DNA from: Candidatus Poribacteria bacterium | GTDB lineage: Bacteria > Abyssobacteria > SURF-5 | DNA length: 28,839 bases | Assembly (NCBI GenBank): GCA_016215705.1 | Contig: JACRIR010000118.1 | Location: forward strand, 1-28,839 | Direction: 5' to 3' | Shown: in pieces, positions 464 to 21,669 of the stretch | How the letters are laid out: every line of letters starts with the position of its first letter | Position numbering within the stretch: the first letter of the stretch is position 1 | Made by a program: the position numbers and the translations under genes | Notes under the pieces: model-generated | The model's database searches: none | What the model was told of the DNA's origin: nothing | What the model saw: only the letters and a program-made list of their open reading frames with translations

Positions 464-540
464 GTAGAGTAGAGAGGGCATAACCCTCCCCCTTGTCAAA
501 CCGGACGTGCAGATTTCCCGCATCCGGCTTTCCTGTAGGC
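464..540 (-). mobile_element. Group II intron 3' remnant (domains V-VI)
   Basis: Read on the minus strand, 530-498 folds as a domain V hairpin. The basal stem AAGCCGGAT/GTCCGGTTT carries the catalytic AGC triad (A-U, G-U, C-G), the two-base AC bulge is present, and a GCGG stem is capped by GAAA. It is followed by a domain VI-like hairpin (GAGGG-TTATG-CCCTC, 488-474) and a CTACTCTAC end typical of bacterial group II introns, which puts the 3' splice boundary near 464. No reverse transcriptase frame is present upstream on this strand (above 540), so only a 3' fragment or degenerate copy remains. The call rests on structure and remembered consensus, not on a search. Confidence 0.55.
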
Positions 541-9766: not shown

Positions 9767-10068
9767 TCTTCCAACTAACAGAAAAAACGCGACAGAAACA
9801 GGGCGAAAGGGAAACTCGAGAAGAGGAAAACGAGCTTGTTTCTCATTTCCGACTTCACTGTTCTTCCCCAACCAACCCGCCACCGTAGACAACGGCGTCC
9901 TGAGAACCAAGGCATCATGCGGCAAGTTTCGTCATATGAATTCCTGCTTTCGCCGGAATTTCGTGGAGATACGCCGGATATCTGTCTCAAATGCCGCTGC
10001 CAACCGCGGCTTGGAGAATTCCAGGAAAAGGTTCGGGCTTTCAAGTTAATGGTTGCAGAGTGATTGAT
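9767..10068. other. Intergenic stretch before the cytochrome
   Basis: No gene is supported. It contains a short AATTCC/GGAATT hairpin with the TGCTTTCGCC loop (about 9939-9960), which resembles a degenerate member of the common 'cgaaagc' intergenic repeat. I found no convincing promoter. Confidence 0.5.
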
Positions 10069-11958
10069 ATGGTGAGAGTTATTGTCGCAGTTCTCCTGGT
10101 CATCGTGCTACTCGCGCTTGTGCAACAGCCGGCGGCGCAGGAAAAGGAACCAGGGGCGCGAGGAGAGGGCTGCCTCGGCTGCCATAAAGGTATCGAGACG
10201 ATCAACCAGAAAATGGCGGCCGCGTGGGGAGCAGACAAGAAGTGCGAGATATGCCATCAAGGGCAACCTTCGGCGGCGAGTGAACTGGAGGCGCATGCCG
10301 GTCTCATCGCCAACCCGGGTGATCTCAGGGTCATAGACCAAACCTGCGGAAAATGTCACAGTGATTACGGAGAGATACTGCGGGTAAAAGTGCAGGGCAT
10401 TGATGACCACGTGGGCAGAGTGATGCGCTCGCTGATGGCTACCGCAGCCGGAGAAATAGCGGGAACACGGTATCTTTGGAACACTCAGGAAACGAGGTCT
10501 GCCATCCACGGGGTGCGTGCGGTATTGGACATGGATCACGAGCAGCCGGAAGGCGCAGTCGCATTGCTTACGGAATTGCCGCCGGCTTCAAACTCGGATG
10601 CCGACAGCCTGCTCCGGGGCGCATGTCTCAGGTGCCATCTCTGGACCGAAGACAAAACCACACCGGGCGTTTTCCGGCCGGCGGGATGCTCGGCATGCCA
10701 CGTGCTTTACGGAGAAACCGGACTGAGCCAGAGTGGAGACCCAGCCATGCCCAAGGACAAGCCCGGCCATCCTCTGCGACACGAGATCACGACGCGCATC
10801 CCGGACACTCAGTGCCTGCTGTGTCACAACGACGGAGGGACAAGGATCGGTCTCAGCTACGTGGGGCTCGCCGTGACCGATTCGAGGCTCGGTCGCACGA
10901 CTTCGGAGACCGACGAAACATCTCTATATGGGGCGCGCCTGATGCACGTAAAACCCGACGTGCACTATCGCCGAGGCATCGGCTGCATCGACTGCCATGA
11001 CTCCATCGACCTTCACGGCGACGGTAACGTGTATTCCCATCAGGAGTATCAGGTGGGGATACGGTGCGAGAGTTGTCACGGCAGTTCGTCGAAGAAGCCG
11101 ACTTTCCGGACGGAGCGGGGCGATGCGCTGGCCAACGTGGCGATGACGGACGGCAAGCCCTACCTGCGCACGAAAGTCTTCGAGGAGGAGCACCGAATTC
11201 CTGTTGTGTATTTGTCCGACACGGACTCCTCCCGTCCGGCCGGCATCTGGCACAAAGGTCATCTAAGATTGGAATGCTACACGTGTCACAGTCTCAACGT
11301 ACCACAGTGCTACGTCTGTCACATGACTCGTGATGACGGCAGAGTGAGTCCGGTCGATTGGGCGACGGGCATAGGCGAGGGTCAACTGCCGAGAAGCTCG
11401 GCGGGGATGTGGAGCGGCAGTGCGCTGTATCAAGCGTGGGACAACCCTATTCTCGGCATTGGCCGCAGAGACCGAATCTCTCCCTTTATGCCGGGGGGCC
11501 AGGCTATATTGGACCGTCTCAGTTCGGGCGGCGAAAAGATCGTGTCAAACCATGTTTTCAAGACGTCAGCAGGCCTTTATGGTTTCTCCATGAACCCGGT
11601 TCAGCCGCACAACATAAGCGCCGAATCACGAACCTGTCCTTCGTGCCATTCGAACAAGAAAACTCTGGGACTGGGGAGTGATTTTGCGGACCTCAAGCGC
11701 CTCGGTCTGTCCTTGAACTTTTCACCCGACAGTTTTGTGAACGAGGAGGGCGGCCGTATCCAGGACTCCGGCCATGAGGGAGTTCGTCCTTTCAACGGAG
11801 AGGAACTAGCCGGTTTGCTTCGGACTGATTCTTGCATTGTTTGCCACAAGGAGCCAATGGAAATGTTCCCCTCCCGTTTTACGCCGGGGTCATTGAAAGA
11901 AGGGGACAGGTCGCATGAAGAGGCAATCAAGAAATCTTTTCAGGCGGAAAAGGAATAA
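10069..11958 (+). CDS. Secreted dodecahaem cytochrome c
   Basis: The 629-residue product starts with a clear signal peptide (MVRVIVAVLLVIVLLALVQQPAAQ), so it acts outside the cytoplasmic membrane. I count twelve CxxCH haem-binding motifs: CLGCH, CEICH, CGKCH, CLRCH, CSACH, CLLCH, CIDCH, CESCH, CYTCH, CYVCH, CPSCH and CIVCH. No C-terminal anchor is visible. The ATG at 10069 was chosen because the signal peptide begins there; a longer in-frame frame to 9991 would put charged and polar sequence in front, and a GTG at 10060 is possible. Such proteins carry electrons to or from metals, nitrogen or sulfur oxides, or partner complexes; the specific role is not readable. No maturation (Ccm) or membrane quinol partner gene is present. 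The stop codon directly abuts the next gene. Confidence 0.9.
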   Translation: MVRVIVAVLLVIVLLALVQQPAAQEKEPGARGEGCLGCHKGIETINQKMAAAWGADKKCEICHQGQPSAASELEAHAGLIANPGDLRVIDQTCGKCHSDYGEILRVKVQGIDDHVGRVMRSLMATAAGEIAGTRYLWNTQETRSAIHGVRAVLDMDHEQPEGAVALLTELPPASNSDADSLLRGACLRCHLWTEDKTTPGVFRPAGCSACHVLYGETGLSQSGDPAMPKDKPGHPLRHEITTRIPDTQCLLCHNDGGTRIGLSYVGLAVTDSRLGRTTSETDETSLYGARLMHVKPDVHYRRGIGCIDCHDSIDLHGDGNVYSHQEYQVGIRCESCHGSSSKKPTFRTERGDALANVAMTDGKPYLRTKVFEEEHRIPVVYLSDTDSSRPAGIWHKGHLRLECYTCHSLNVPQCYVCHMTRDDGRVSPVDWATGIGEGQLPRSSAGMWSGSALYQAWDNPILGIGRRDRISPFMPGGQAILDRLSSGGEKIVSNHVFKTSAGLYGFSMNPVQPHNISAESRTCPSCHSNKKTLGLGSDFADLKRLGLSLNFSPDSFVNEEGGRIQDSGHEGVRPFNGEELAGLLRTDSCIVCHKEPMEMFPSRFTPGSLKEGDRSHEEAIKKSFQAEKE

Positions 11959-12742: not shown

Positions 12743-12771
12743 TTGAACGGGGTTATCTTTCATGCTATAAT
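12743..12771 (+). promoter_or_regulatory. Sigma-70 promoter of the signalling operon
   Basis: TTGAAC (12743-12748) and a perfect TATAAT (12766-12771) are separated by exactly 17 bp. Initiation near 12778 would give a leader of about 58 bases before the kinase ATG at 12836. This also rules out the in-frame TTG at 12743 as a start codon, because it is part of the -35 element. Confidence 0.7.
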
Positions 12772-12835
12772 TACATTCGGAAACTCTGTCGTGCAAGCAG
12801 TATCCGCGCGGTCAAAAGTAGGGGATGACCTGCCG

Positions 12836-15346
12836 ATGCGGCCTCCCAAATTCAGATTAGGGCTCCGTTTCAAGATAACCGCCTATATTTCACTTGTCGT
12901 GATGTTCACAGCTACGGTGCTTGGCTGGTTTCTTGTCCGCAGACAAGTTCACGAAATAGCCGAACATCTCAAGGAAAAAGGAGCGGTTCTGGGACGGAAC
13001 GTAGCTTCCGCCAGCGAGTACGGCATGCTCACGGGCAACCGAACGATATTTGACAGCATCATCGCCGGCCTGAAGAAGGAGAAGGATGTTGCGTACTGCA
13101 TCATAGCAAATAATCGAGGCGAAATACTGGCTCGCACACCGACCCTGCCACACCACATCGAGGGCATCTCGCAGACGGCCGCCTACGAGGTAACCGAACA
13201 GGCGCTAAGAACCGAAAAGCTGCTCATACAATCATTTACCGAAGATGAAACCAGGACACCTGTGTACGACATCGCGGCGCCCATCATGACGCAGAAGATC
13301 AGTTCATCTCTCTCGGGAGAAGAGGTTGTTTTCGGGATGGACGACACCTCCGGCTCGAAGGGTGTCACCGAAAGAATAGGAGTGGCGCGCATCGGCATAT
13401 CGCTGGATTCAATGAACAAGGAAATCAGCCGGGCTCGCCGCACAATCACAAACGTCACGGTGTTCGTCGTACTTTTGTCCATCGGAATAACCGTGTTCCT
13501 GGTGCGCGTCATCGTTGATCCGGTTCAGCAGTTGGTCGCTGCAACGGAGCGAGTGGCGAGCGGTAACCTCGACAAGCCCGTCATGATCAACACTAACGAC
13601 GAAATCGGCGAACTGGGCGCCTCGTTCAACAAGATGACGGACGATCTGAAGCGCTACCGCACGGCGCTCGAGGATTACAGCAGAACACTCGAGCAGAAGG
13701 TGGAGGAACGCACAAAAGCGCTCCGCTTAATCAATGAGGAGTTGCACCGGACAAACGAGCAGTTGGAGACGGTCAACAAACTGAAATCGGAGTTTCTTGC
13801 GAATATGAGCCACGAACTCCGAACTCCTCTGAACGCGATTATCGGGTTCTCCGAAATTCTTCACGACCAGTCGTTCGGCGCGCTCAACGAGAAGCAGATC
13901 AAGTACGCGCAAAACGTGGTAATCAGCGGGAAGCACTTGTTGCAACTCATCAATGAAATTCTTGATCTCGCGAAAGTTGAATCGGGAAAGATGGACCTGC
14001 ATCCGGAAACGTTCGCGCTCGCGGATGCGCTGACGGAAATCGTGAGCTTCGCGCGCGGGCTCGCCGCAAAAAAGGAGATAACGATCCGGCAGCGGATTTC
14101 GCCGAAGATTGTCACTATTACGGCGGACCCCAAGAAATTCAAGCAGATTTTTTATAATCTGCTCAGCAACGCGATAAAGTTCACGTCCAACAATGGATTG
14201 GTCGAGATATCGACCGATATTGTTGGAGATTTCGAAATATCGGTGAGCGACCAGTTCATTCTGAGACGCTACGTGGAATTCTGCGTCAAAGATAACGGGA
14301 TAGGAATCGACAAGGCGGACCATGAGCGAATCTTCCACGAATTCCAGCAGGTGGACGGCTCGCATTCGCGCCAGTACGAGGGCACCGGCCTCGGGCTCGC
14401 GCTCACCAAGAAGATCGTCGAGTTGCATGGCGGCTCAATATGGCTCGAAAGCGAAAAAGGCAAAGGCAGCTCGTTCTACTTCACTCTGCCTGTGACGGAG
14501 AACGACACCATCGAGCCTGCCCCATCGCCCGAAGCCGCGGAGCGAAGAAAAGAACTCGCTGTCGGCTCAAACAGCAAAGGCCGCGCTGAAGCCGTGCTCG
14601 TTGTGGAAGATGAGCCGCACTCATTCGAGTTGATATCGGCTTATCTGACGGAAGCCGGCTACCAGGTCGCCCACGCAACGAGCGGAAAAGAGGCTATCGA
14701 AGCGGCGCGTTTGATCCACCCCGCAATCATAACGCTCGATATTGTGCTCCCGGACATGGACGGTTGGACGGTATTGCAGGAACTCAAAGCGGCTCCGGAG
14801 ACAAGCCATATCCCGGTAGTCATCACGTCGGTACTGCAGGATGACGGGACGGGCTTCAGCATGGGGGCAGCCGATTACATCGTGAAGCCCATTTCACGCC
14901 AGCAGTTGCTCGATCGTCTGGAGAAATTGCACGAATTTACCGCGAAGGGACGCATATCGGACGTGCTGGTAGTGGACGACGACCGCCAGTTCGTCGAGCT
15001 TGTAGCCACCATGCTTGAGGAACAGTCTTTTTGTATCACGAAGGCGTACACGGGCCTCCAGGCAATCGAGTACGCCACCAAGCAGAGGCCCGACCTGATC
15101 TTCCTCGATCTGCTGCTTCCCGATATCAGCGGATTCGAGATCGTGGAATTCCTGAAGATGGAGGAGACCACCAAAGATATCCCGATAGTGCTTGTAACCG
15201 CCAAAGACCTGACGGATGAGGAGAAACGCTCGCTGGACGGAAAGATAGAGGCGATAGCCCAAAAAGGGCACTATGGCAAGAATGATTTCCTCGGCGAAAT
15301 CAAACGCATCGAGCGCCTCGTCACGACAAGAAAGGGAGAAGCTTGA
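12836..15346 (+). CDS. Membrane hybrid histidine kinase with two receivers
   Basis: This 836-residue sensor has TM1 at about 14-34, a periplasmic sensor region of about 165 residues, and TM2 at about 203-225. A HAMP domain follows (VIVDPVQQLVAATERVASGNLD), then a coiled coil. HisKA carries phospho-acceptor His326 (NMSHELRTPLNAIIGFSE), followed by an ATPase domain with N-box (NLLSNAIKFT, about 440), DNGIGID and GTGLGLAL. Two C-terminal receiver domains follow, with phospho-acceptors Asp635 (TLDIVLPDMDG) and Asp758 (FLDLLLPDISG). The ATG at 12836 was chosen because it lies downstream of the promoter and directly precedes the charged pre-TM1 stretch. The next gene starts one base after the stop. 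The double receiver suggests an internal phosphorelay feeding the downstream regulators; the stimulus is unknown. Confidence 0.93.
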   Translation: MRPPKFRLGLRFKITAYISLVVMFTATVLGWFLVRRQVHEIAEHLKEKGAVLGRNVASASEYGMLTGNRTIFDSIIAGLKKEKDVAYCIIANNRGEILARTPTLPHHIEGISQTAAYEVTEQALRTEKLLIQSFTEDETRTPVYDIAAPIMTQKISSSLSGEEVVFGMDDTSGSKGVTERIGVARIGISLDSMNKEISRARRTITNVTVFVVLLSIGITVFLVRVIVDPVQQLVAATERVASGNLDKPVMINTNDEIGELGASFNKMTDDLKRYRTALEDYSRTLEQKVEERTKALRLINEELHRTNEQLETVNKLKSEFLANMSHELRTPLNAIIGFSEILHDQSFGALNEKQIKYAQNVVISGKHLLQLINEILDLAKVESGKMDLHPETFALADALTEIVSFARGLAAKKEITIRQRISPKIVTITADPKKFKQIFYNLLSNAIKFTSNNGLVEISTDIVGDFEISVSDQFILRRYVEFCVKDNGIGIDKADHERIFHEFQQVDGSHSRQYEGTGLGLALTKKIVELHGGSIWLESEKGKGSSFYFTLPVTENDTIEPAPSPEAAERRKELAVGSNSKGRAEAVLVVEDEPHSFELISAYLTEAGYQVAHATSGKEAIEAARLIHPAIITLDIVLPDMDGWTVLQELKAAPETSHIPVVITSVLQDDGTGFSMGAADYIVKPISRQQLLDRLEKLHEFTAKGRISDVLVVDDDRQFVELVATMLEEQSFCITKAYTGLQAIEYATKQRPDLIFLDLLLPDISGFEIVEFLKMEETTKDIPIVLVTAKDLTDEEKRSLDGKIEAIAQKGHYGKNDFLGEIKRIERLVTTRKGEA

Positions 15347-15347
15347 G

Positions 15348-15731
15348 ATGGCCGCCGCACGGATTCTTGTTGTAGAAGACAATGCAATGAACATGGAACT
15401 GGCTGTTGATCTGCTCAGCCTCCAGGGTTATGAAGTCCTGTCGGCCAGAACGGGACAGGAGGCGCTTGACATCTCGAGCACGGAGCAGTTGGACCTCATC
15501 CTGATGGACGTTCAACTTCCGGGGATGGACGGACTGACCGTCACAAAGAAGCTTAAGGAAAACCCCAGCACGAAGCATATACCCGTTGTTGCGTTGACCG
15601 CCCATGCCATGAAGGGCGACGAGGAGAGAATCCTTCGTCATGGCTGCACGGGCTACATCTCGAAACCTATTGACACGAGGGAATTCCCAAAGGCCGTCGA
15701 GAAGTTCATCGGCAAAACGAAGAAAGGTTGA
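15348..15731 (+). CDS. Single-domain response regulator (CheY/DivK-like)
   Basis: The 127-residue protein is only a receiver domain: acidic pair VVEDN near residues 9-13, phospho-acceptor Asp54 (LILMDVQLPGMDG), the T/S position in VALTAHAM, and Lys in ISKPID. There is no output domain, so it acts by protein-protein contact or as a phosphorelay carrier. I chose the ATG at 15348, with GGGAGAA upstream; a longer frame starting within the kinase gene would add a non-conserved extension. It sits between the hybrid kinase and a REC-kinase in the same operon, a natural position for a shuttle between them. Confidence 0.92.
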   Translation: MAAARILVVEDNAMNMELAVDLLSLQGYEVLSARTGQEALDISSTEQLDLILMDVQLPGMDGLTVTKKLKENPSTKHIPVVALTAHAMKGDEERILRHGCTGYISKPIDTREFPKAVEKFIGKTKKG

Positions 15732-15740
15732 ACCCGCGTC

Positions 15741-16949
15741 ATGCCCAAAGAAAGTTCCGCTCCCGGCCAGGCCCGCATCCTGATCGTCGAGGATGACCCG
15801 GTAAACATCGAGCTCATGAAAGCTCAACTCGGCAGCGAGGGATACGTAATCGAGTCCGTCCTCGACGGGGAGGAAGCGCTGCGCCGCCTCTCGCAGACGA
15901 AACCCGACCTTGTTCTGTTGGACATCATGCTTCCGAAAAAAAGCGGCTTTGAAGTCTGCAAACTGATCAAAAGCAATGCCGAAATAAGAAACACGCCTGT
16001 GATCATGGTGACCGCCCTCAACGACATGGAGAGCAGGGTCAAGGGCATAGCCGTCGGAGCAGACGATTTCCTGACGCGCCCTATGGACAAGTCGCAACTG
16101 TTGGCGCGCGTGAAGTCGATGCTGAGAATAAAACAATTGAACGACGAGCTTACGAGCGAAACCCTGGCGAGCCGCGAATCGAGCGAGAAGCTGGAGCGCC
16201 AGCAGCGGGTGCTGAAGTCGATGTCCACGCAACTCATGCAGGCGAGCCACTTGAAGTATGAATTCATCGTGAACATGAGCCATGCGCTGCGCACTCCGCT
16301 CAACGTGATAATAGGTTTTTCGGAGATGCTGCAGGACGAACTCGTCGGCAAACTCAATGACAAACAATTGAAATACGTGAATAACGTTCATGAAAGCGGA
16401 CGCGAACTGCAACAGCTTATCACGAATATCGTCGATGTCTTCAAGATAGACACGGGCAAGGTCCCGCTCGAGACCACGGAATTCTCGCTGAAAGATTCAA
16501 TTGTTACCGCCGCCGAAGCCATGAAGGCGGCGGTTCAAGAGAAGAAAATGGACATCTCGGTCCGCGTTGCGCCGGAGGCTTCCCGCATCTGCGCAGACCC
16601 TCAGAAACTCGCGGTCATCCTCGAGAACCTTCTGTCGAACGCCGTCAAGTTCTCCCCCAGGGGGAGCACGGTGCAGGTGCAGGCCGAAAGGGTCGGGGAT
16701 TCGATCCGCCTGTGCGTTCGCGATTCAGGCCCCGGCCTCTCGGAAGTGGACTGCAAAAGGGTATTCACCGAATTCTATAAGGTGAGCCATCCCGAGGGTT
16801 CCCCTTCCGGCGGCAGCGGGCTCGGGCTGGCGATCTCGAAGAAGCTTGTGCTGATGCACGGCGGAGAAATCTGGGCGGAAAGCAAGAGAGGGGAAGGCAG
16901 CGCGTTCATTTTCACGCTGCCTCAAAGGCAAAAGAGGGCGCAGTGGTAG
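15741..16949 (+). CDS. Soluble REC-HisKA hybrid kinase with His-Ala motif
   Basis: The 402-residue cytoplasmic protein starts with a receiver domain (Asp61 in LVLLDIMLPKKSG). A coiled coil leads to a HisKA dimerisation helix with His181 (NMSHALRTPLNVIIGFSEML) and a HATPase domain (LLSNAVKFSP, RDSGPGLSE, GSGLGLAISKK). There is no membrane segment. The conserved acidic residue right after the phospho-acceptor histidine is Ala182 (codon GCG) instead of Glu, although the ATP-binding boxes look intact. In this kinase family that Glu assists phosphotransfer and phosphatase activity, so catalysis may be altered. It starts 9 bases after the single-domain receiver. Its own REC domain makes it a likely internal node rather than a primary sensor. 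Confidence 0.9.
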   Translation: MPKESSAPGQARILIVEDDPVNIELMKAQLGSEGYVIESVLDGEEALRRLSQTKPDLVLLDIMLPKKSGFEVCKLIKSNAEIRNTPVIMVTALNDMESRVKGIAVGADDFLTRPMDKSQLLARVKSMLRIKQLNDELTSETLASRESSEKLERQQRVLKSMSTQLMQASHLKYEFIVNMSHALRTPLNVIIGFSEMLQDELVGKLNDKQLKYVNNVHESGRELQQLITNIVDVFKIDTGKVPLETTEFSLKDSIVTAAEAMKAAVQEKKMDISVRVAPEASRICADPQKLAVILENLLSNAVKFSPRGSTVQVQAERVGDSIRLCVRDSGPGLSEVDCKRVFTEFYKVSHPEGSPSGGSGLGLAISKKLVLMHGGEIWAESKRGEGSAFIFTLPQRQKRAQW

Positions 16950-16980: not shown

Positions 16981-18534
16981 ATGACGGTCGAGAAGCAGCG
17001 TAAATCAAGAGCGCGCGTATCGCCTGGCCGCAGGAGAATTCGTTCTCGCTCTTCCACAAAATGGATCGAGGCGATGTTTGAGTCATTCATTGACTCGATC
17101 GATGTCGGAGTGTTCGTGCTCGACACCGCCGGCACGATCAACCGCGTCAACAGGTTCATCCTCGAGCATTATCGGTGGGAGCTTTCCGAACTGATCGGCA
17201 AGAATATCTTCGAGCTTATGCCCGACCTGCTGGCCCTGGGCGTACAAAAGGGGTTCAAGGAGATAGTCGGCCTGCGGCTCACGAGAGAACTCATGAACAT
17301 CGAGCGCGAGGACCGGCAAGGAGCGCGCGTCGTATTCAACCTCAAGGGAATTCCCATTGTCGAAGGAAACGAGGTTAGAGGCGTGCTCGCCGTGATGAAC
17401 GACATTACGGAGAAACGAGCTCTCGAGTCCCAGGTCGCCGAGACTGAAGAATATCTGCGGAGCCTCATCGATAACGCGAATGATATCATCTACACGCTCG
17501 ACCGCGAGGGCTACATAACGTTTCTCAACAAAATGGGTCAGAAGATAACCGGCTACAGTTTCGATTCCGGCGCAGAGATTCGCGGGCACTATTCCGAATA
17601 TGTAGTCAAGAAGGATGTCCAAAAAAACGAAAAGAAGTTCCATGAGGCCATAGAAGGCAAGCCGCAACGGTTCGAGTCCGAGATCGTGAGCGTTGACGGC
17701 AGGCACGTGAATGTGCTCATCAATATTACGCCCATCCGGAAGGGCGAGAAAATAGTCGGCGTTCTGGGGATTGCGCGCGATGTCACGGAGCGGAAGCAGA
17801 TGGAAGCGCAATTGCTGCAAGCGAGCAAGATGGCGGCCATCGGCGAACTCGCTGCGGGAGTGGCTCATGAAATCAACAACCCGGTCGGCATAATAAGCGG
17901 GGCCGCGGAGCAACTTCAGTTCGTGATCGATCATTACCGGGACAGACCGGAAGAGTTGATGGGTAAGCTGTCTCAACACCTTGATGTAATACGGGAGCAA
18001 GCGGTGCGCTGCAAGAAGATAACGCAGGGGTTGCTGAACTTCGCGCGCAAGACGGAGCTTCGAGCGTCGGAAGTTAACGTCACAAGACTTCTTCAGGAGA
18101 CCGTCGCCCTCGTGGAGAACCGGACAAACTCGGAACACAAGAGGATCGAAACCCACATGCCGTCCGATCCGCCCAAATTCTATTCCGACCCTCACCTTCT
18201 CGAGCAGGTCTTCCTGAACCTCGTCAACAACGCGCTCGACGCCGTCAAAGAGGGCGGCACGGTCATTGTGAAGGGACGCACCGAAAACAACTGGCTCATC
18301 ATGGATTTCATCGATGACGGAATCGGGATTTCGGATGAGGCCCAAAAGAAAATATTCGACCCGTTTTTTACGACGAAGCCCATCGGGAAAGGAACCGGCC
18401 TGGGGCTTTCAATTTGCTTCGGCATCGTCCAACGCATGAGCGGGACGATCTCGGTGGACAGCAAACCGGGCGTGGGCACAACTTTCACCGTCCGCCTGCC
18501 GGTGGAACGAGGGCGACGGCTTGAAACGATGTGA
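16981..18534 (+). CDS. PAS-domain sensor kinase, NtrB-like
   Basis: This 517-residue kinase has no membrane segment. A basic N-terminus precedes PAS1 (about 38-150, GVFVLDTAGTINRVNRFILEHY), then PAS2 (about 156-275, DIIYTLDREGYITFLNKMG) ending in GIARDVTERKQ. The HisKA motif with His296 (GVAHEINNPVGIISGAAEQL) is of the HEINNP type found in partners of NtrC-family activators. The ATPase domain has FLNLVNNALDAV, DDGIGI and GTGLGLSICFGIV. AGGAGAT lies just before the ATG. It is followed after three bases by the NtrC-type regulator, its obvious cognate partner. PAS domains may bind haem, flavin or small ligands; none can be assigned from the sequence. Confidence 0.93.
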   Translation: MTVEKQRKSRARVSPGRRRIRSRSSTKWIEAMFESFIDSIDVGVFVLDTAGTINRVNRFILEHYRWELSELIGKNIFELMPDLLALGVQKGFKEIVGLRLTRELMNIEREDRQGARVVFNLKGIPIVEGNEVRGVLAVMNDITEKRALESQVAETEEYLRSLIDNANDIIYTLDREGYITFLNKMGQKITGYSFDSGAEIRGHYSEYVVKKDVQKNEKKFHEAIEGKPQRFESEIVSVDGRHVNVLINITPIRKGEKIVGVLGIARDVTERKQMEAQLLQASKMAAIGELAAGVAHEINNPVGIISGAAEQLQFVIDHYRDRPEELMGKLSQHLDVIREQAVRCKKITQGLLNFARKTELRASEVNVTRLLQETVALVENRTNSEHKRIETHMPSDPPKFYSDPHLLEQVFLNLVNNALDAVKEGGTVIVKGRTENNWLIMDFIDDGIGISDEAQKKIFDPFFTTKPIGKGTGLGLSICFGIVQRMSGTISVDSKPGVGTTFTVRLPVERGRRLETM

Positions 18535-18537
18535 GGA

Positions 18538-19905
18538 ATGAAAAAGAAACCGATCAGACTCTTGATAGTTGACGACGAAGAAGCCTACCGAAACTTGTTG
18601 TTCGAGCGATTCAGCATGGTCGGCGACGCTGTAGCGCTGGCGGCCACAGGTGAAGAGGCGCTCACTCGAATCAAATCTGAACCGTTCGACGTCGGCATCC
18701 TCGACCTCCGCATGCCCGGCATGGACGGAATCGAGTTGTTCAAGAGAATCAGGGAATACCAACCGCTCGCGGAAGTGGTCTTCCTGACGGGACAAGCGAC
18801 CGTCGACATGGCAATCGAGGCCATGAAGCTCGGAGCATATGACTTTCTCACTAAGCCATGCCAGCTCTCCGAACTGCAACTGGTTGTCCAGAAAGCGTGT
18901 GAAAAAAAACAGCTTGCCGAGAGAGTGAGCCGCCAAAGCGAGCTGCAGCAGAGAGCCGGAATCGTAAACCTCGTGGGTGACAGCGCCGCAATGCAGCAAG
19001 TCAAAGGCCTCATCGCCAGAGTAGCCCCCACCGAATCGAGCGTGCTCGTCGAGGGTGAAAGCGGAACAGGCAAAGAAATCGTGGCAAACGCCATCCATCA
19101 GAACAGCCGGAGAAGCAACAACACGTTCGTCGTGATAAACTGCGGCGCAGTTCCTGAGACTCTCCTTGAAAGCGAGCTCTTCGGCCACGAGAAAGGCGCG
19201 TTCACGGGCGCCGTCAAGCAGAAGAGCGGCCTCTTTGAGATAGCCGACGCAGGCACTCTCTTCATCGACGAGGTAAGCGAAATGAGTCCCGGTATGCAGG
19301 TCAAACTGCTGCGGGTCCTGGAGACGGGCAGATTCCGGCGAGTGGGTGACATCAAAGAGATCGAGGTCGATGTCCGCGTCATATGCGCGACCAACAAGAG
19401 GCTCCGCGAAGAAACAGCGGCAGGCCGATTCCGGGAAGACCTGTTTTACCGAATTAACGTCATGAGCATCTATTTGCCGCCGCTTCGTGAACGCAGAGAA
19501 GATATCCCCTTGCTCGTGGCGCATTTTGTCCGGTCATCGCGTCACCCGAACGCCGGTAGGATCACGGTGACAAGCGAAGTCCTAAACGCCTTCTCCAGGT
19601 ACCACTGGCCCGGCAATGTGCGCGAACTCTCCAATGTTATTGAACGCGCCATCATACTTGCCGATAACAACATCATCACGCTTCACGAGATACCTATCCT
19701 CGACAAGAGCGGCGGTGAAGCTAACTCGCAGTCGCTCGTCACTCTCTCGCTCGATGATGTCGAGAGAAGGCACATCCAGCTTGTGCTCGAAAGCGAAAAC
19801 GGCAATAAGACACGAACGGCGCAGATTCTCGGTGTCAGTCGTCCAAAGCTCTACAGAAAAATGCTCAAGTACGGCATTTCCGATAATGTTCGCACATCCT
19901 CCTAA
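18538..19905 (+). CDS. NtrC-family sigma-54-dependent response regulator
   Basis: This 455-residue activator has three domains. The receiver carries phospho-acceptor Asp56 (ILDLRMPGMDGIELF). The AAA+ domain has Walker A GESGTGKE (173-180), the sigma-54 contact loop GAFTGA (220-225, intact), Walker B GTLFIDEVSEM, and the arginine-finger region FREDLFYRINV. The C-terminal Fis-type helix-turn-helix ends in TRTAQILGVSRPKLYRKMLKYGI. It can therefore open sigma-54 promoters when phosphorylated. It is the last gene of the signalling operon, three bases after the NtrB-like kinase. The only strong sigma-54 promoter I noticed is about 380 bases downstream, in front of the structured RNA, which makes that RNA the prime candidate target. 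Confidence 0.95.
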   Translation: MKKKPIRLLIVDDEEAYRNLLFERFSMVGDAVALAATGEEALTRIKSEPFDVGILDLRMPGMDGIELFKRIREYQPLAEVVFLTGQATVDMAIEAMKLGAYDFLTKPCQLSELQLVVQKACEKKQLAERVSRQSELQQRAGIVNLVGDSAAMQQVKGLIARVAPTESSVLVEGESGTGKEIVANAIHQNSRRSNNTFVVINCGAVPETLLESELFGHEKGAFTGAVKQKSGLFEIADAGTLFIDEVSEMSPGMQVKLLRVLETGRFRRVGDIKEIEVDVRVICATNKRLREETAAGRFREDLFYRINVMSIYLPPLRERREDIPLLVAHFVRSSRHPNAGRITVTSEVLNAFSRYHWPGNVRELSNVIERAIILADNNIITLHEIPILDKSGGEANSQSLVTLSLDDVERRHIQLVLESENGNKTRTAQILGVSRPKLYRKMLKYGISDNVRTSS

Positions 19906-20057: not shown

Positions 20058-20256
20058 TTTTGTTACATATTTTTGAAATGTCATAACCGATTTATCTTCA
20101 GAAGATTACGTTTGGTCAGCCGCATTTCAGATACACCATTGCGTAACATAACATTTCATTTCTTGAATTCCCACTCGGAGACATCTCCTCATAGAAGAAT
20201 CAATTATTGCCAGAACCGAGTCCTTTAACTTGGCTCTTGACAATATGTTACAAAAA
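20058..20256. repeat. AT-rich region with repeated TGTTACAT-like elements
   Basis: TTTTGTTACATAT at 20058-20070 recurs inverted at 20243-20255 with 12 of 13 bases matching. A half element GTAACATA lies at 20143-20150. TGAAATGT (20074-20081) is matched by ACATTTCA (20151-20158). These could be further activator sites or an integration-host-factor-type bend region upstream of the sigma-54 promoter. Confidence 0.4.
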
Positions 20257-20281: not shown

Positions 20282-20297
20282 TGGCATAGACCTTGCT
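20282..20297 (+). promoter_or_regulatory. Sigma-54 (-24/-12) promoter
   Basis: TGGCATAGACCTTGCT fits the sigma-54 consensus TGGCAYRNNNNTTGCW at every constrained position, with GG at 20283-20284 and GC at 20295-20296 in the required spacing. The start point would be near 20308. No protein gene follows on this strand, so the transcript would be the structured RNA. An NtrC-family activator gene lies immediately upstream. Confidence 0.7.
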
Positions 20298-20307
20298 TAT
20301 ATACTAT

Positions 20308-20627
20308 GCAACGGTAAGTGAAGGCGCTAGGCCTTGACCACCGGGCTCAGTGAGGGGAAATAATAGATTTTGGGCAGATGAATAACCATTTAAAACACTT
20401 GCTGGGAGACAAGCGTTTTGAGAGGGCAATTGATAGAATGGGACAATGGTTACCATCTGCCCACGTTTTCTTACGTCCTAATCCCCTCCTAAAGCAAGGG
20501 ATGGATTTGCCCCGTCATTTCTTTTGAATCCGGCGGCAAGTGAAGTCGTCGGAAAGAGAAAAGGCAGACCGGACTTAATAGAAGTTTTTGACGGGGCGGG
20601 TTCTCCCTTGCTTTACTTTTTTCTTTT
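20308..20627 (+). ncRNA. Candidate structured non-coding RNA, unknown family
   Basis: About 320 bases downstream of the sigma-54 promoter fold by eye into nested helices. A 5' hairpin is AAGGC/GCCTT (20321-20335). A closing helix GAGGGGA/TCCCCTC (20352-20358 with 20482-20488) encloses a 10-bp helix TGGGCAGATG/CATCTGCCCA (20371-20380 with 20454-20463). Inside that are TAACCATT/AATGGTTA (20383-20390 with 20445-20452) and a 10-bp hairpin with one mismatch (20392-20401 with 20410-20419). A second domain is a helix of about 26 bp with one bulge (20491-20517 with 20589-20614), which encloses a 9-bp hairpin (20529-20537 with 20545-20553). A T-rich tract follows. I do not recognise it as 6S, tmRNA, RNase P, SRP or a riboswitch. 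Several GGA triplets occur in loops (for example 20405-20408), so a CsrA-sponge role is one speculative option. Confidence 0.6.
20491..20627 (+). terminator. Terminator-like 3' hairpin of the structured RNA
   Basis: AAAGCAAGGGA plus a 15-base segment (20491-20517) pairs with 20589-20614 through about 26 pairs, including several G-U pairs, with a single bulged base at 20502. CTTTTTTCTTTT (20616-20627) follows directly. The loop is 71 bases long and itself structured. The T run is present only on the plus strand, which supports plus-strand transcription. Confidence 0.55.
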
Positions 20628-20722
20628 ATGCAGTCAGCTTGAGCGGCTTCCTCTGCTAATCCTGTTGCCTTACCTTCGAGTTGTGACCTTCGGCCTTTGA
20701 CTCTCGCCTCCGTTTGACAACC

Positions 20723-20824
20723 GTTTTCTCATTGGGATAGACTACCTCAGTCCTTAGACCGGCATGGACGCAATGGACGGGATGGAGTTTTCTCATTGGG
20801 ATAGGCTAACTCAGTCCTTAGACC
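20723..20824. repeat. Two 38-bp direct repeats, 26-bp spacer
   Basis: Units at 20723-20760 and 20787-20824 match at 36 of 38 positions. Both start GTTTTCTCATTGGGATAG and end CTCAGTCCTTAGACC. The 26-bp spacer contains three ATGGA steps. Layout and the GTTTTC start resemble a minimal or relic CRISPR. Only two units exist, the spacer is short and internally repetitive, and no cas gene is in the window, so I call it only a repeat. Confidence 0.75.
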
Positions 20825-20904: not shown

Positions 20905-21600
20905 TCAAGCAAGCAAGTTAAGAATGGGGTCCTGAGCGGAAGGTTGGGTATCGGGAATGGCGCCGCCGGTTGCCTGAGTGGTTTGTGTGGTTACTTTTTG
21001 ACTTTCGGAAGAGGCAGAAGCCAAAGAGAGCGTCGAGAATATCTGTTCGAGTCGCATGCGCCTGATCTCGTCGCCGACCACGTCCATGTCATGTTCCAGA
21101 CGCGCGCGTTCAAGGCCGGCATCCACTCGCTCGATTACGGAATCGGCAAACTGTAGCCGTTTGCTTGCGGTTTCAAGCCTCTGTTCAAGCTGGTTGAGCC
21201 GCGCATCCAGCTCGCGTTCGCGCATCGAACCAGGACTGGTCAGATACCGGAATCGGCGGATGGAAGGAGCCGGCCCTTTGCTGATTTCGGATGTGTTCGG
21301 CTCTGCGTTTGCTTCGGCAAGTGGAGGACCGTTGTTTGCCGGACCGACAGTTTCGTTGGCGCCGGCCGTCTCAAGCGAAGCGGCGGCGGCATTCGGGCTG
21401 TTCATTGGGGGGGTAGTAGCCGCAACGGGATTATGAGAAAGCGGTTCAGTCTCAATTCGCCCCGCGCTTGCGTTTGTCTGTATGGTTGGCCTTGCAGCGG
21501 TTTGTTGAGCGGACAGATTGGGAGAAGCAATGCCTATTCTATCGAGGTCGTGCCTCACATCGAAAGCAGGATTGTTCGTAATGTTTATTCTGATTCCCAC
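20905..21600 (-). CDS. Coiled-coil protein with flagellin-like N-terminus
   Basis: I do not recognise this protein. With the GTG start at 21600 it has 231 residues and begins MGIRINITNNPAFDVRHDL, which recalls the first residues of flagellins (MxxRINTNxxSLxAxRxL). A low-complexity Ala/Pro/Asn/Thr-rich middle follows (about 27-120), then a strongly charged predicted coiled coil (about 125-195, RERELDARLNQLEQRLETASKRLQ). It ends with a polar tail closing in DPILNLLA. There is no signal peptide. The GTG was chosen because GGAAGGGG lies upstream and the transcription start predicted from the consensus promoter lies too close to the ATG at 21657. A flagellin-derived or surface-filament-associated role is only a guess, and a protein unrelated to flagellin is quite possible. 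Confidence 0.55.
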   Translation of the reverse strand: MGIRINITNNPAFDVRHDLDRIGIASPNLSAQQTAARPTIQTNASAGRIETEPLSHNPVAATTPPMNSPNAAAASLETAGANETVGPANNGPPLAEANAEPNTSEISKGPAPSIRRFRYLTSPGSMRERELDARLNQLEQRLETASKRLQFADSVIERVDAGLERARLEHDMDVVGDEIRRMRLEQIFSTLSLASASSESQKVTTQTTQATGGAIPDTQPSAQDPILNLLA

Positions 21601-21669
21601 GGCACACCGCCCCTTCCCCGAAGGAGCCATATCGGCCACGAGGCATTCTAGACCCACTAAACCATTGTA

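Follow-up and report, generated by a model that had tools for sequence, protein, structure and literature searches.

A conserved structured RNA with a sigma-54 promoter, the probable output of an adjacent multi-kinase NtrC-type operon

What does a multi-kinase signalling operon control when the sigma-54 promoter that follows its NtrC-type activator gene precedes no protein gene? This question is raised by a 28,839-nt contig of Candidatus Poribacteria bacterium (JACRIR010000118.1; hereafter the window, i.e., the whole stretch of DNA that was analysed). The original prediction had proposed that this five-gene operon controls an RNA output, in the manner of Qrr or Rsm-type RNAs. We compared three genomes of the phylum, i.e., that of the window (G000) and two others (G001 and G002), which represent three genera of one family. 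We consider it probable that a new RNA family is encoded here, i.e., a regulatory RNA that sigma-54 RNA polymerase transcribes under the control of the adjacent NtrC-type regulator and that would act in trans without Hfq. The proposal of an RNA output stands for a sigma-54-driven structured RNA tied to an NtrC-type activator (conserved promoter and helices, no conserved ORF, no Rfam family), but not for a Qrr mechanism.

The promoter and the upstream signalling operon

The promoter box TGGCATAGACCTTGCT matches the consensus TGGCAYRNNNNTTGCW at all constrained positions. A search of the whole window returned it as the only sigma-54 match with at most one mismatch, for a chance expectation of 0.94 per 28.8 kb on both strands and of about 0.006 for this intergenic strand. 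Orthologous boxes are found in the relatives, i.e., TGGCACTAGTTTTGCT in G001, with one departure (at R), and TGGCATGGAGATTGCT in G002, so that the sigma-54 promoter claimed at this place is well founded. The spacing between the box and the invariant hairpin described below is 116 nt in the window, 109 nt in G001 and 115 nt in G002, and the -24/-12 promoter thus occupies a conserved position ahead of the RNA in all three genera. From the position of the box, transcription is predicted to start near 20307-20308. The claim that no protein gene lies behind the promoter is also borne out: the plus strand has no downstream gene, and its only sizeable ORF (49 aa) is not conserved.

The promoter lies in a syntenic block of about ten genes that surrounds the RNA in the three genera. 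On the 5′ side, the order is cytochrome c, metallophosphoesterase, hybrid kinase, response regulator, kinase, PAS kinase and NtrC-type gene; on the 3′ side, it is a convergent gene for a 250-aa protein, a BadF-type ATPase and a SIS-domain protein. The proteins of the kinase operon are only 65-81% identical between genera, which indicates that these genera are well separated. The orthologues of the NtrC-type regulator, located at the same place in G001 and G002, are 76-81% identical. As predicted, its GAFTGA motif is intact in the translation, and the end of its gene is 376 nt from the sigma-54 box (about 380 bases had been announced). RpoN was found in all three genomes. A multiheme cytochrome gene (9991-11958, plus strand), also syntenic in the relatives, belongs to the same-strand run that includes the signalling genes; its product has partial similarity, below the curated cut-off, to ExtM of selenite/tellurite reduction operons.

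Upstream of the box, the hexamer GTAACA is located at -139 in the window and at -136 and -141 in the relatives. No other 6-mer holds its distance to the box (136-141 bp for GTAACA) across the three genomes; among 2000 shuffled triples, 22 contained any such 6-mer and none contained GTAACA itself. Altogether, TGTTAC/GTAACA occurs five times in the upstream regions of the three genomes (0.41 expected). The motif had been spotted before the comparison with CbrB presented below. From adjacency and this one short candidate motif, we infer a link between the RNA and the neighboring NtrC-type activator. In the mechanism that we propose, the kinases of the operon would pass phosphoryl groups to the NtrC-type response regulator. 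This regulator would probably bind GTAACA/TGTTAC about 140 bp upstream of the promoter and activate the sigma-54 RNA polymerase, leading to transcription of the RNA.

Table 1. Coordinates, in the window, of the promoter, the RNA parts, the signalling genes and the candidate activator sites
Feature	Coordinates	Strand	Basis or remark
Sigma-54 (-24/-12) promoter TGGCATAGACCTTGCT	20282-20297	+	Pattern match; orthologous boxes in G001 and G002
5′ hairpin of the RNA	20312-20343	+	Predicted fold; relatives' predicted hairpin here differs in sequence
Domain I: invariant hairpin enclosed by a covarying helix of 18 bp (20372-20390 with 20445-20462)	20372-20462	+	
Invariant 42-nt core: hairpin AAAACACUUG-CUGGGAGA-CAAGCGUUUU, then GAGAGGGCAAU	20389-20430	+	Three-genus comparison
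Near-invariant C-rich segment GUCCUAAUCCCCUCCUA, 17 nt, anti-Shine-Dalgarno-like, proposed pairing seed	20475-20491	+	
Domain II: variable structured loop closed by a long helix (20490-20516 with 20589-20615)	20490-20615	+	
T-rich tract 3′ of domain II; may act as a terminator, in this genome only	20616-20629	+	Absent in both relatives
Hybrid histidine kinase: HAMP, HisKA, HATPase, two receiver domains	12743-15346	+	Pfam; orthologues syntenic in G001 and G002
Single-domain response regulator	15273-15731	+	Pfam Response_reg; syntenic
Receiver-histidine kinase protein	15741-16949	+	Pfam; syntenic
PAS histidine kinase	16981-18534	+	Pfam; syntenic
NtrC-type response regulator: receiver, sigma-54 activation AAA+ with GAFTGA, Fis-type HTH; proposed RNA activator	18538-19905	+	Pfam, translation
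GTAACA, candidate half-site for the activator (139 bp upstream of the sigma-54 box)	20143-20148	+	Position kept in relatives
TGTTAC, further candidate half-site (-221)	20061-20066	+	This genome only
TGTTAC, further candidate half-site (-36)	20246-20251	+	This genome only

Fold, conservation and distribution of the RNA

For the RNA 20308-20640, the folding energy is -128.8 kcal/mol (z = -6.95), a stability that none of 100 shuffled sequences reached. Its minimum-energy fold recovers the two well-built domains of the original prediction, i.e., a long one-bulge helix that encloses a hairpin, and a helix of 12 + 15 bp whose loop is itself structured. Two details of that prediction hold in this genome only. 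The 7-bp closing helix GAGGGGA/UCCCCUC is complete here but only about 4-5 bp long in either relative. The T tract said to end the RNA does follow domain II here but is absent from both relatives, so domain II is not just a terminator, and the position of the 3′ end is uncertain. The RNA would measure roughly 270-330 nt in the family, and roughly 320 nt for the window copy. The opposite strand is likewise well folded (z -6.1), as for any long-helix RNA gene, and the strand has to be assigned by other evidence. This is provided by the G-U pairs, which make up 11 of the 116 paired cells in the three-genome helix comparison: on the other strand they would become A-C mismatches, which designates the plus strand as the RNA.

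Together with its sigma-54 box, this RNA has orthologues in both other genomes of the phylum, at the same place in the syntenic block, and each of the three genomes carries a single copy. Three-way identity reaches 97% at 20386-20425 and about 60% at 20426-20505, for a background of 15-28%, about 20%, in the aligned upstream and flanking intergenic DNA. The 42-nt core is the same in the three genera except for one base inserted between TTT and AAAAC in the relatives, and the C-rich segment shows the same bases in all three. As to the helices, the 18-bp helix of domain I contains six pairs with two-sided change (3 of 54 cells broken) and domain II five two-sided changes among 22 compared pairs (1 of 66 cells broken), both counts being made on an alignment hand-adjusted for bulges and hence biased towards structure. 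In the unadjusted MAFFT alignment, cited for domain I, five two-sided changes are observed, where shuffles give 2.3 and slid controls 1-2. Since only three sequences are compared, these statistics are modest, and we regard the covariation support for the helices as good but not final. The covariation and conservation expected of a genuine RNA are thus seen in both long helices and in the promoter, and no hidden conserved ORF is found in the three genera.

The distribution of the RNA was studied with a covariance model made of domain I and the C-rich segment, under strict filters. All three members of the phylum were matched, and none of 383 other genomes. At 80 loci of NtrC-type genes from other phyla, the model gave no convincing match (best, 12 bits). 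A protein search with the NtrC-type regulator in the genome contigs returned only relatives from other phyla, with 40-49% identity. No copies of the RNA were found in viral and phage sequences. In Rfam, no relevant match was obtained for the RNA at gathering or relaxed thresholds, including with CrcZ, Qrr and GlmY, nor any match at the gathering threshold for the two syntenic loci of the relatives. The fold had been described as unrecognised, and the RNA family is indeed new, adding to Rfam a family that it misses, in a barely sampled, isolated phylum. Elsewhere in the window, a group II intron domain match (464-532, minus strand) exceeds the Rfam gathering score and adjoins a plus-strand peptide deformylase gene.

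On this comparative evidence, we hold the conserved structured RNA gene and its sigma-54 promoter to be real. The syntenic occurrence of this promoter and of a folded RNA after the same multi-kinase operon in three genera implies that the pathway very probably ends in a regulatory RNA, i.e., that the output of the operon is very probably this RNA rather than proteins only.

Mode of action and rival explanations

The search for Hfq gave nothing in the three genomes of the phylum, although control genomes were positive, and the RNA can therefore not simply copy the mechanism of Qrr or CrcZ. CsrA was found in G000 and G001, and not in G002, whose genome is 91% complete. We propose that the RNA acts in trans without Hfq. 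The near-invariant segment GUCCUAAUCCCCUCCUA contains the anti-Shine-Dalgarno core CCUCC, and its portion UCCUAAUCCCCUCC, located between two rigid domains, would pair with the Shine-Dalgarno regions of target mRNAs and block their translation, a step that we put forward only tentatively even if the RNA is real. In the predicted fold of G001, AUCCCCUCC of this segment is fully exposed in a hairpin loop; in those of the other two genomes, the segment is mostly paired, and this pairing could either serve as a gate or count against the base-pairing reading.

The search for targets gave no conserved target of the C-rich segment among the three genomes, and no consistent target for seed pairing at the starts of neighboring genes. 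Near-complements number 5, 8 and 4 in G000, G002 and G001, against 7, 2 and 4 for a reversed-pattern control, i.e., no more than the control in two of the three genomes. A perfect complement of 16-19 nt is found at G000:C128:1255-1273 (L139). It lies in non-coding DNA, ahead of a strong GC hairpin, and may be a sponge, a paralogue or a chance match. As an antisense target, it was rejected, being non-coding and not conserved in the relatives. In G002 only, the site AGGAGGGGATTATG (C72:6917, L163), which precedes an ORF of about 162 aa, is a plausible candidate target: its Shine-Dalgarno sequence and start codon can pair almost completely with the seed.

The main rival to base pairing is a protein-titrating RNA, in which the 42-nt core with its exposed GGGA and a second GGGA would sequester an RNA-binding protein, CsrA or another, just as CsrB/RsmZ sequester CsrA and CrcZ sequesters Hfq/Crc. 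The predicted folds of all three RNAs contain exactly two conserved unpaired GGA sites (both GGGA), one in the invariant hairpin loop and one in the following single strand, 34-36 nt apart. Moreover, the stem and the loop of the core are both invariant, which suggests recognition of shape plus sequence, and CsrA is encoded by two of the genomes. However, two sites are few compared with the multiple CsrA dimers bound by CsrB-type RNAs (PMC5027483), and neither the lack of detected CsrA in the nearly complete G002 nor that of Hfq in the three genomes fits well. We thus judge titration possible but rather unlikely. Both modes are ones that we infer, and base pairing is slightly favored. A composite is conceivable and doubtful: a phylum-specific class of sigma-54/NtrC RNA without detectable Hfq, whose 42-nt core would recognise an RNA-binding protein beside the 17-nt anti-Shine-Dalgarno seed, the RNA being the conserved output of a multi-kinase pathway.

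The readings that dispense with a trans-acting RNA are much less probable. One would make the region a cis-acting leader or an antisense element of the convergent gene (20905-21657, minus strand), since the RNA is directed at the 3′ end of this gene, which is conserved in place. This is very unlikely, as 333-508 nt separate the core from the stop codon of the gene, with little conservation between them save domain II and a sigma-70-like box. A DNA element without RNA gene (a REP/MITE-like palindrome, a terminator or a recombination site), suggested by the strongly conserved arms CTGCCCCG/CGGGGCAG of domain II and by its terminator-like aspect, is at least as improbable: the locus is single-copy and orthologous in position, the sigma-54 box stands at a fixed distance, and the G-U pairs favor one strand. 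The repeat idea was dropped, the arm pattern giving one exact match per relative genome, at the RNA locus itself. As for a small-protein gene with incidental RNA structure, the window does contain a 49-aa ATG ORF across the core, but neither G001 nor G002 preserves its start, frame or C-terminus, the 12 shared codons show no synonymous change, and the two-sided helix changes fit RNA structure. This hidden ORF is largely refuted, and such a gene is hardly credible.

Several other features lie 3′ of the RNA. A sigma-70-like promoter, TTGACA-N17/18-TAGACT (20714-20743, plus strand), is conserved in the three genomes (at L111:9711, plus strand, in G001, and in G002 about 286 nt 3′ of the core). 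It is located between the RNA and the convergent gene, is aimed into the 3′ end of the latter, and may drive an antisense or a second small transcript. Two direct repeats of 38 nt (20723-20760 and 20787-20824), 95% identical and 26 nt apart, look like a local duplication and not a CRISPR, since the first one overlaps this conserved box. The 250-aa protein of the convergent gene has no Pfam match and is conserved in place in the three genera, about half of its length being 40-45% identical.

Comparison with known systems

Returning to the preferred reading, a trans-acting RNA under the NtrC-type regulator, we compared it with the systems named in the original prediction. LuxO-Qrr of Vibrio is similar in that a regulatory RNA depends on sigma-54 and on an NtrC-type response regulator. 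However, Qrr RNAs are Hfq-dependent and much shorter than the present RNA, and the analogy of mechanism fails with Hfq undetected in the three genomes. CsrB/RsmZ are likewise structured RNAs with exposed GGA motifs, controlled by two-component systems, but the classical ones are not known to be driven by sigma-54. The Rsm analogy is weak, since only two GGA sites are both conserved and exposed, and CsrA was found in two genomes out of three.

Two other systems, CbrB/CrcZ and QseF/GlmY, appear as better parallels. In Enterobacteriaceae, the sigma-54-dependent glmY adjoins the genes of the two-component NtrC-type activator QseF (GlrR), with upstream activating sites, and its RNA is not Hfq-bound (PMC6075780). 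It differs in that glmY is upstream of the operon, that the sites are TGTN12ACA and that the action goes through RapZ and GlmZ; moreover, the present RNA has no Rfam match. For the supposed pairing, the NfeR1/alpha-r14 RNAs of rhizobia offer a precedent of Hfq-independent trans-acting sRNAs, with ultraconserved unpaired CU-rich anti-Shine-Dalgarno motifs (PMC10746234). Unlike here, the NfeR1 promoter is not of the sigma-54 type, and three hairpins bear the motif; no sequence relation to the present RNA was seen.

In Pseudomonas and Azotobacter, crcZ is a separate transcription unit with its own sigma-54 promoter, directly 3′ of the NtrC-type activator gene of cbrAB, and this synteny is kept (PMC8871633). 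CrcZ sequesters Hfq/Crc, unlike what can be expected here with Hfq undetected; the present RNA has no Rfam match, and the present kinases are not SLC5-fused CbrA. On the other hand, CbrB, the NtrC-type activator of crcZ, has TGTTAC and GTAACA subsites (PMC6296734), and the half-site of our candidate activator sites looks the same. These hexamers being short, this likeness is a parallel and not proof of a shared regulator. The layout in which an NtrC-type activator is followed by its sigma-54-driven RNA, best known from Pseudomonads, Enterobacteria and Vibrios, would extend to genomes in which Hfq was not found and which offer a concrete case for studying riboregulation without it.
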